This document shows, piece by piece, positions 2,903 through 9,500 of a stretch of 64,000 bases of DNA (its first letter is position 1; every line of letters begins with the position of its first letter). Made by a program: the position numbers and the translations under genes. The DNA comes from Sycon ciliatum (Eukaryota > Porifera > Calcarea > Leucosolenida > Sycettidae): the NCBI RefSeq assembly GCF_964019385.1, contig NC_088655.1, positions 20,134,371 to 20,198,370 of the forward strand, in the 5' to 3' direction. The notes under the pieces are model-generated. The model saw only the letters and a list, made by a program, of their open reading frames with translations. It made no database searches and had not been told where the DNA came from.

Positions 2903-3406
2903 TAAATCAGTTGTTTCTCTGACCATCTCCCACCTGGAATCTTGTCATGACCTGAACATATGTTCATACACTAACTCGAAGCCAGTTAAAAGTTCACCAC
3001 AAGAAGTGGAAATAAATCAAAGACGGAACTGTGGAAGAACTTTTGGGCAAAATCCTGCTGTCTACTTGAAATTGGTCAATTCAATTCCACTTCATACTAT
3101 GCTCATGCGAAGGTTTTGCATGTTTACGCTCTCAACATGCAAATAGATTTGGCACCCAGAGTCGCATTAACATTGCTTACTAGCTTGGATTCACTGGATG
3201 GTCACTCATAAATCGTCAATTGCTAGCCCTGAGTGAAAGTTCAAACGTACAAAATGAGACAATGTGTGGGATAAATTGTGAATTTGTCAACTGTTGCATT
3301 CTACTCTCCACTGGTATGCTGCATTGATTTGCACTTGTGATTGTGATCTAATACGTAACTTATTAAGTACTTTTCGCGGATCCCTGTTTCTTTCCTGTTC
3401 TTCCAG

Positions 3407-3505
3407 GCTGGTGACACTCCGTTGCACTGTGCCGTCAAGAGACGCTATATCGGCATTTGCAAAATGCTGCTCGATGCCGGTGCCGAGAAGGACATGGAGG
3501 ATAGG
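3407..3505 (+). CDS. ankyrin repeat exon 1 of array
   Basis: This exon follows a pyrimidine-rich acceptor ending ccag and precedes a gtaaga donor. It is 99 bp, phase 0 at both ends, and encodes exactly 33 residues. It starts [10 protein letters not shown], the ankyrin xGxTPLHxA turn-helix signature, followed by [10 protein letters not shown] for the second helix. The variable middle is KRRYIG and the C-terminal hairpin ends EKDMEDR. Ankyrin repeats are protein-binding modules, and the ligand cannot be inferred from sequence. This copy differs from most others in the finger region (MEDR instead of KKNS). Confidence 0.85.
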
Positions 3506-6500: not shown

Positions 6501-9500
6501 CGAAGGTTTTGCATGTTTACGCTCTCAACATGCAAATAGATTTGGCACCTAGAGTCGCATTAACATTGCTTACTAGCTTGGATTCACTGGATGGTCACTC
6601 ATAAATCGTCAATTGCTAGCCCTGAGTGAAAGTTCAAACGTACAAAATGAGACAATGTGTGGGATAAATTGTGAATTTGTCAACTGTTGCATTCTACTCT
6701 CCATTGTTATGACTGCATTGATCTGCACTTGTGATTGTGATCTAATATGTAACTTATTGAGTACTTTTCGTGGACCCCTGTTTCTTTCCTGTGCTTCCAG
6801 GCTGGTGACACTCCGTTGCACTGTGCTAGTAGGCAAGAAAATATCCCAATTTGCGAAATCCTGCTCAAAGCCGGTGCCAACAAGGACAGCCAGAATAATG
6901 TAAGGGTACAGTTTCGAGTGTAGTGCCCGGTGTATGTACTATTTTCACTTTTTACCCAATACGTACAGTAAAACAAATGTTTCTCTGACCCTCTCAAACC
7001 TGGAATCTTGCCATGACCTGAACATATGTTCATACACTAACTCGAAGCCAGTTAAAAGTTCACCACAACAAGTGGAAATAAATCAAAGACGGAACTGTGG
7101 AAGAACGTTTGGGCAAAATCCTGCTGTCTACTTGAAATTGGTCAATTCAATTCTGTTTCATACTATGCTCATGCAAAGGTTTTGCATGTTTACGCTCTCA
7201 ACATGCAAATAGATTGAGCGTCCCGAGTCGTTTTAACCTTGCCTAGTAGCTTGGATTCACTGGATGATCACTCATAAATTGTCAATTGCTAGCCCTGAGT
7301 GAAAGTTCAAACGTACAAAATGAGGCGATGTGTGGGATGAACAGTTTTCTGTGTGTGTGGGATAAATTGTGAATTTGTCAACTGTTGCATTCTACTCTCC
7401 ACTGTTATGACGACATTGATCTGCACTTGTGATTGTGATCTAATATGTAACTTATTGAGTACTTTTCGCGGATCCCTGTTTCTTTCCTGTGCTTCCAGGC
7501 TGGTGACACTCCGTTGCACTGTGCCGTCAATCAACGCTCTTTCAACATTTGCGAAATCCTGCTCAAAGCCGGTGCCGACAAGGACAAGAAGAATAGTGTA
7601 AGGGTACAGCAGGGCCATCCCCTGGACTATCAAAATGGGTGCTTTATTATTTTTCTGTGCCCGCCCGCCTAGCAGCCAAAGCCTCCCAAACACCGCATTG
7701 TTCATCAGTTTATAGAAGTCTTTGGAGAAATCATCCTGTGCCTTCTTCCGGAGGTCTGTATTCTTCTCGATGTAGTTTCTCATCCACGGTGTCTGAGTAA
7801 ATTTCAGAGCACGATGAATTTTGACACAACGTAGTCCGAGCTGAGTGTAGAGTTTCAAGTTTCGGTAATGGAGAACGTACTTTGTCTTATCCCTCAAGTT
7901 TGGTACAAGTTTGAGAGCATCTACTCCGGAAGAATTGAGTTTATCAACAAGCTCCTGCTGGTATGGAGATAACATGTCCTCATTGACGGAAAGACGTTCC
8001 GGAGCAACTGGATAATCGTTGTGCTTCTCATGAAGTTCGTGTGGATATTCCAGATCACACTCGACGATATACCCCGATGAGGAATCGTCTTGAGTATTCA
8101 GTATCTTGTTCAGGAGTTTCTCTGATGGTTTCTCCCACTGAAAATCAGACACTGGGAGATGCTGTGACATTGCCCAACCATAGAGATTGTTGGCATCGAG
8201 ATACTGGATAAATGACGATGGCTGATCAGCATCAAATTTCTCCTGATAGTGATTATTAGCAGCAGCATATCGTTGTGAGACCATCGACACACCGCCTCTC
8301 ATTCCTGATTCTACAAACAAGTGCTGATCATAGTCTGTTAGTAATTCCAAGGACACACCTGAGTACATCAACAGAGCATCCCAGGCAAATCCAGGCAGAG
8401 TGTAGTAATTTGCTGGATCCAGCTGATACGTTCTGACAGGCGATGGTACGTAGAAGGTGCGAGAGATGAAAATTTCTATTTTTCCAAGCCGTGCAGTAGG
8501 CCTAGGGCCTGCTCACCAAGCGAGCAGAGATTCCAGGTGTCAAGGACTTCGAGATTTTCCACGATTACGATGGAGCGGGATCCCACTCGAGTCATGTCAA
8601 AATGCAGAAGGAGCCATCCATGAAATCTCTGTATCGCTCCAGCCCAGTCTGCCAGCTGTCCTGTGACGACTTGTTGTCGTTTTGGATAGAAGTGACAGTT
8701 TAGTAGTGGTATTAGACACCCACGCATATGGCCGATTGGTTTGCAGGCCTGCCTGCGAATCATGAGGTCCCGGGTTCAAGACCCGCGCTGGTAGCAGGGA
8801 GCGTGTAAAAAGACTTTTTAAGCGTGTTGAACTGCGCCGACACCCACGGTCAACTGGGTACTCACAGCTCGGAGTGAGAATAACAAGGATGCAGTTTACA
8901 GGGTTATGGGCCGTTACACGCCCGATTGGTTGAGAGACTAACCTCCTCTCCCCTGACTCACTTGTGAGGTCTGCATTCGCCACTAAGGTTAACAGGCATA
9001 GTGGTGGCCTGCGGATGCGAAGGCTAGTTTGTGTGTTTCTGAACATTCAAGCGATGCCGACGCGGATCCCGCGAATATTATATTATTATATTAGACACCC
9101 TTAGCAAACAACGTTATGTTGTAACGGTATTACCGCAAAGGGGAAACTACCGTGATTTGGGCTCGACCTTTAGCAAGATACACGCTATTTTTAGTACGCT
9201 GTTGCCACGAGAATAGCTTTTACTTAGCGTGGTACAATCATTTATGTCACCATATACGCGATACAAGGTGAAATGCGTACGGACTATGCAATATTTGGCC
9301 AAAAAACGTACCGTTGGTCACAACGATAAATCAGCCCCCATAACGTTTCTACGCTGCAGCTTCAACGCTATTTGGGTGATCAAGGTACGAGTGCCCTTTA
9401 AGCCGATCATGAAAATGTTTTTAATCATGACTGTGTTAGATGAAACCAGCAGCTAACTTCCTGCCCTACAACTACGTGAATACTGAAGGTCGATCGCCAC

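Follow-up and report, generated by a model that had tools for sequence, protein, structure and literature searches.

Organization of the ankyrin exon array

The window (the whole stretch of DNA analyzed, 64,000 nucleotides, C14:20134371-20198370) is part of a 538-Mb genome and contains an array of seven 99-bp exons on the plus strand. All seven have the same length and phase (phase 0), are free of stops and keep intact AG and GT splice sites. Exon 1 encodes an ankyrin repeat at window positions 3407-3505 and is followed by exon 2 (4085-4183, core VNQRYFN), exon 3 (4764-4862, core VKRRFMD), exon 4 (5443-5541, core VNERYID), exon 5 (6122-6220, core VKKGFID), exon 6 (6801-6899, core SRQENIP) and exon 7 (7499-7597, core VNQRSFN). 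Exon-to-exon spacing is 678, 679, 679, 679, 679 and 698 bp. Exon 5 looks mosaic, its 5′ part resembling unit 3 and its 3′ end unit 1, and exon 6 has the only core that is closer to those of two sister arrays (described below) than to those of its own array. Intron copies extend from 2903 to 7609, all in the same orientation. A 5′-truncated copy precedes exon 1 (2903-3406), six complete introns of 579-599 bp lie between the exons (within 3506-7498), and the first 12 bases of a seventh intron (7598-7609, read by eye) are followed by unrelated DNA.

The 33-residue repeat, the TPLH and GA motifs and the alignment to solved ankyrin repeats place the encoded polypeptide among the ankyrin repeat proteins. 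In a comparison with solved structures, the joined translation matched both designed and natural ankyrins (best E 6e-128; 215 chains at E up to 1e-20). An earlier sequence-only reading of this DNA had proposed that each exon encodes one whole ankyrin repeat, and this is what we found for all seven. Symmetric phase-0 exons of this kind permit gain, loss or exchange of repeats without disturbing the reading frame.

Exons differ more than introns within the array

The same reading held that the introns are more alike than the variable parts of the exons. Mean pairwise difference is 0.150 (15.0%) for the seven exons and 0.046 (4.6%) for all seven intron copies, which confirms that the reversal is real. 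Differences are unevenly spread along the exon: 0.018 in codons 1-9, 0.365 in codons 10-16, 0.113 in codons 17-27 and 0.164 in codons 28-33. The first 26 bases are identical across the seven exons, as had been noticed from the sequence, and base 27 varies silently. Variable sites make up 18 of 21 in codons 10-16, 18 of 78 in the rest of the exon and 56 of 504 in the intron (Fisher tests against the intron, p 6e-14 for codons 10-16 and 0.006 for the rest of the exon; codons 10-16 against the rest, p 2e-7). The proposed clustering of exon changes was thus borne out for codons 10-16, but codons 28-33 form no cluster distinct from codons 17-27 (7/18 v 10/33 sites, p 0.55). Unit 6 is the most divergent; when it was dropped, 25 of 99 exon sites, 10 of 21 core sites and 52 of 504 intron sites still varied, and the excess over the intron remained significant for the exon (p 2e-4) and for the core (p 3e-5). 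Units 3 and 5 illustrate the pattern, since they differ by 0.7% over 300 upstream bases yet by 10 of 99 exon bases and nine amino acids. Ordinary decay alone is ruled out by an exon divergence that exceeds that of the intron.

Selection tests in the array

On the exon tree, the array has 44 replacement and 8 silent changes (0.56 per replacement site and 0.39 per silent site, against 0.168 changes per site in the intron). For codons 10-16, with paths chosen to favor silent steps, we counted 21 replacement and 6 silent changes. The expectation that dN/dS would exceed 1 in the clustered codons fell short of significance: a GY codon model gave omega 4.6 in codons 10-16 (p 0.09) and 4.3 in the other codons (p 0.018). 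The dN/dS of the array core is itself uncertain because three methods disagree (about 1.3 by pN/pS counting, 0.84 by parsimony and 4.6 by the codon model).

The suggestion that variation in the array falls on ligand-contact positions was not supported. We used positions 1, 3, 11, 12, 24, 31 and 33, which we take to be the randomised positions of designed ankyrins. The designed repeats among the structure matches agree with this set. Replacements were not enriched there in the array (mean 1.57 v 1.27, p 0.34), and four of the seven contact positions vary, against 15 of the 26 others. Changes in the array also hit the fold residues G13, G25 and L21, which are kept in 38, 41 and 41, respectively, of 41 exons of the wider family described below. 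This hints at weakened fold constraint in the array.

Two sister arrays

A unit query (40 of 102 candidates scored) and an exon query (40 of 41) located two sister arrays, one (A) at C14:19.909-19.922 Mb and the other (B) at C13:19.397-19.406 Mb. Their exons are closer than those of the array to the usual ankyrin sequence. The counts within these arrays were made without the terminal-type exons A23882 and B19341, a frameshifted A copy (A18423) and one reverse-oriented B copy. Neither sister array shows a general excess of exon over flank diversity (0.175 v 0.245 and 0.199 in A; 0.084 v 0.196 and 0.171 in B), and the core of A taken alone has a diversity of 0.275. For A and B together dN/dS is 0.99. 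The terminal exon type of the family occurs once beside A and twice beside B and nowhere else (all nine candidates scored). A script-made list of the ORFs upstream of A and B, inspected by eye, contained no convincing N-terminal exon.

These values bear on the alternative that the introns of the array are unusually constrained or recently homogenised, while its exon divergence is ordinary. Indeed, the exon value of the array (0.150) falls between those of the sister arrays, and its intron value is several-fold lower than theirs. Homogenisation that spares exon middles would itself require selection or a special mechanism, however, and codons 1-9 are as uniform as the introns whereas codons 10-16 are not. 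We therefore regard this account as unlikely.

A wider family of ankyrin exons

A peptide query retrieved at least 122 exon-like matches, none with an internal stop (150 of 255 candidates scored). By hand count, at least 99 of the 122 lie within C14:20.29-21.35 Mb. These matches are exon-like, with splice sites checked in the fetched pieces only. With a 450-base query, for which 40 of 146 candidates were scored, we obtained at least 41 long matches (348 or more of the 450 bases), which were aligned without ten shorter matches and without exon-like copies that have another length or lack a donor. All 41 aligned exons, which were picked by likeness to one copy, are 99 bp long, open and splice-intact. 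The cluster also contains several exon-like copies that are 96 bp long, have no donor at the expected place or meet a stop.

Across the 41 exons, diversity is 0.115 upstream, 0.134 downstream and 0.116 in the exon, where codons 10-16 reach 0.236 and the remaining codons 0.084. Without any choice of pairs, therefore, only the core exceeds the introns, by about twofold, and the whole exon equals its flanks. Positions 1, 11, 12, 14 and 16 are the most variable, and positions 4, 6, 20, 21, 25, 31 and 32 are invariant. The contact set carries 52 replacement and 3 silent changes on the exon tree (p 0.004) and 70 and 4 on the intron tree (p 8e-4), with 7.43 replacements per codon against 2.35 in the other codons (p 0.006). 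Under the codon model, omega of the contact set was at the upper bound of the program (against 1, p 6e-5) and 0.89 elsewhere (p 0.64); for the whole exon, the exon tree gives a dN/dS of 1.21 and the intron tree one of 0.97. We note that recombination weakens these tree-based tests.

We also compared 14 disjoint pairs with flanks that differ by <5%. Their flanks differ at 88 of 4442 bases and their cores at 35 of 294, and their contact codons differ by 26 replacements and no silent change. The core differs more than the flank in eight pairs, less in five and equally in one (Wilcoxon p 0.033); in the closest pairs the cores are mostly identical. Because choosing pairs with close flanks biases the comparison toward an exon excess, the unconditional figures and the contact test weigh more. 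Diversifying selection, the most probable cause of the divergent exon middles, has statistical support at ligand-contact positions in the wider family, and it is only suggested in the array, where the same set of positions gave the non-significant result reported above.

A mutational cause is an alternative to selection on the protein: regional hypermutation or repeated short conversion may target the exon middle. In array codons 10-16 conservative counting raises both replacement and silent changes, to 1.24 and 1.48 per site against 0.17 in the intron, and nearly every site there varies. With only about four silent sites, the array core leaves room for hypermutation or import. That core has few silent changes that are unambiguous, however. 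The codons that vary most across the wider family are not contiguous, codon 13 between them being conserved, and the close-flank pairs changed their contact codons by replacements alone. We consider a purely mutational account improbable.

One 10-kb piece of the cluster (L050, C14:20691001-20701000) contains a perfectly identical 3-kb repeat, 6973 bases apart, which bears exons of the wider family. It is either a very recent duplication or an assembly duplication. Doubtful duplicates may thus exist in the cluster, and near-identical tandem units such as those of the array are difficult to assemble. Errors of assembly would not, however, concentrate in codons 10-16 with the frame kept, and the variable core recurs at separate loci; an artefact is therefore a very remote explanation of the array.

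Mosaic units and uncoupled flanks

In the table of variable sites, many intron states are common to units 1, 2 and 6 and others to units 3, 4 and 5, and the exon states cut across these groups. For instance, units 1 and 5 have codons 30-32 and one downstream intron base in common. Sister-array copies A14426 and A20924 show a comparable switch inside the exon, with an upstream flank distance of 0.000 and a downstream distance of 0.221. In the wider family, distances between upstream flanks do not correlate with those between downstream flanks (r -0.11), nor do core distances with upstream ones (r -0.05). The two intron flanks thus appear to have unrelated histories, and the lack of correlation suggests that segments of a few hundred bases are often exchanged. 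Import of the array cores from exons of the sister arrays or the wider family was rejected, as a comparison with 63 non-array exons showed no donor core; the closest ones differed at 5-7 of 21 bases.

Mobile DNA at the array edges

On its left side, the array ends (2903-2905) where a fold-back mobile element ends. This element occupies 375-2905 (outer left limit by eye) and has inverted arms at 666-1107/2433-2874 and 1124-1397/2155-2428. A query spanning the left edge matched at least 40 other places, most of them ending within five bases of the edge (40 of 1548 candidates scored). On the right, the intron breaks off 12 bases past exon 7, and a fragment of a high-copy element, homologous to DNA polymerase B, starts 75 bp beyond the array on the minus strand (7684-8512; matches begin at 7684 and the homologous ORF ends at 8512). 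With 40 of 549 candidates scored, this element matched at least 39 other places at 97% or more. Neither the first nor the terminal exon type of the family was found in the window or the 10 kb upstream, so the array does not have the form of an intact gene of the sister-array type. With mobile DNA at or beside both edges and these exons missing, the block has probably been detached from its gene and has lost the gene ends, and a receptor role at this locus is putative.

The array may even be a dead fragment, now decaying between mobile elements, with a diversity that would date from its past in a working gene or from short pieces of exon acquired from relatives since lost. The mobile edges, the missing end exons and the changes at G13, G25 and L21 all agree with this. 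On the other hand, the seven exons are open with intact splice sites, plain decay cannot yield exons that differ more than introns, and the comparison of 63 exons contained no donor core. We rate its chance at a little under even; it is compatible with the family account set out below.

Neighboring genes

NACHT domains were found in very large numbers in the genome (at least 102 matches, 102 of 452 candidates scored), many of them at C14:0.2-2.8 Mb, C12:21.3-22.9 Mb and C5:36.5-38.5 Mb. None of the scored matches lies at C14:19.9-21.4 Mb, and none places a NACHT domain in the same gene as the ankyrin exons. Death domains gave 14 matches in the genome (56 of 56 candidates scored; 0 matches in 14 prokaryote controls), again with none at C14:19.9-21.4 Mb.

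The window has several other features. A CARD-like ORF at 19354-19770 (plus strand) has an E of 0.0021, below the Pfam cut-off; taken with the Death-domain and NACHT matches, it suggests that the genome is that of an animal. Two related ORFs at 52550-53254 (plus strand) and 63054-63407 (minus strand), with 39% identity over 99 amino acids and no Pfam match above the cut-off, might at a guess encode a death-fold-like domain. A perfect 227-bp tandem duplicate lies at 24240-24704, of which about 121 bases match the array B locus at 99%. At 15289-15798, 510 bases of unbroken TG repeat share an open frame with a reverse-transcriptase-like stretch, and an RVT_1 match adjoins. Between 52000 and 56000 there are 200 N in total, presumably an assembly gap.

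Comparison with known systems

The ankyrin family resembles the LRR genes with one repeat per exon that occur in brown algae and ciliates, and the ankyrin NLRs of fungi. Brown-algal LRR-ROCO genes are described as encoding one LRR per 72-bp exon, with exon shuffling and positive selection at four ligand-face sites (PMC11378527). The fixed length and phase of repeat-encoding exons and the shuffling are alike, and the ligand-face selection has its parallel in the test results of the wider family but not in those of the array. The algal genes differ in having LRRs in phase-2 exons, an attached ROC-COR domain and alternative splicing (PMC11378527); no attached domain was found in the ankyrin family. 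Tetrahymena genes contain arrays of 90-bp LRR exons, for which ectopic recombination was proposed (PMC6564038); they share the many arrayed exons of one length and intron phase, but belong to a ciliate and encode LRRs in phase 2. Podospora NLRs with ANK, TPR and WD repeats combine concerted evolution with positive selection, in ankyrin mostly on the concave face, and with changes in repeat number (PMC4986451). Those repeats likewise evolve in concert under positive selection but sit in NACHT/NB-ARC proteins, whereas the ankyrin cluster is without a scored NACHT match; the main text of that paper does not use the word intron (PMC4986451). In the open-licence literature we found no published description of an animal ankyrin-exon family of this kind.

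Interpretation

We consider it probable that the array represents a block, recently amplified and now detached, from a large gene family with one ankyrin repeat per 99-bp exon, in which units exchange sequence through their introns and exon middles are selected apart. Units would multiply and swap sequence by unequal crossing-over and gene conversion via the near-identical introns, as the mosaic units and uncoupled flanks suggest, and diversifying selection on the protein surface would most probably drive the exon middles apart. The sequence-only reading had proposed a cassette array homogenised by conversion while its binding residues diversify. The alike introns and mosaic units of the array agree with that proposal, as do the uncoupled cores and the excess of contact-residue replacements in the wider family; the lack of contact enrichment in the array and the absence of the reversal in the sister arrays do not.

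Proteins built from such cassettes may bind varied partners, such as microbes or non-self. More speculatively, and with odds that we put clearly below even, this probable animal may maintain a library, megabases in extent, of 99-bp ankyrin exon cassettes that are interchangeable. Its introns would serve as homogenised recombination handles and its contact residues would be diversified. New surfaces for recognition would then arise in the germline or through in-frame choices in splicing, by a route independent of antibody-like and LRR systems.

The family offers a natural data set on the joint action of conversion and selection, and lends itself to testing whether recognition surfaces in invertebrates are diversified one repeat at a time. 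If expressed, it would be an ankyrin-based counterpart, in an apparently animal lineage, of the algal and ciliate cassette LRR genes and of the fungal ankyrin NLRs.
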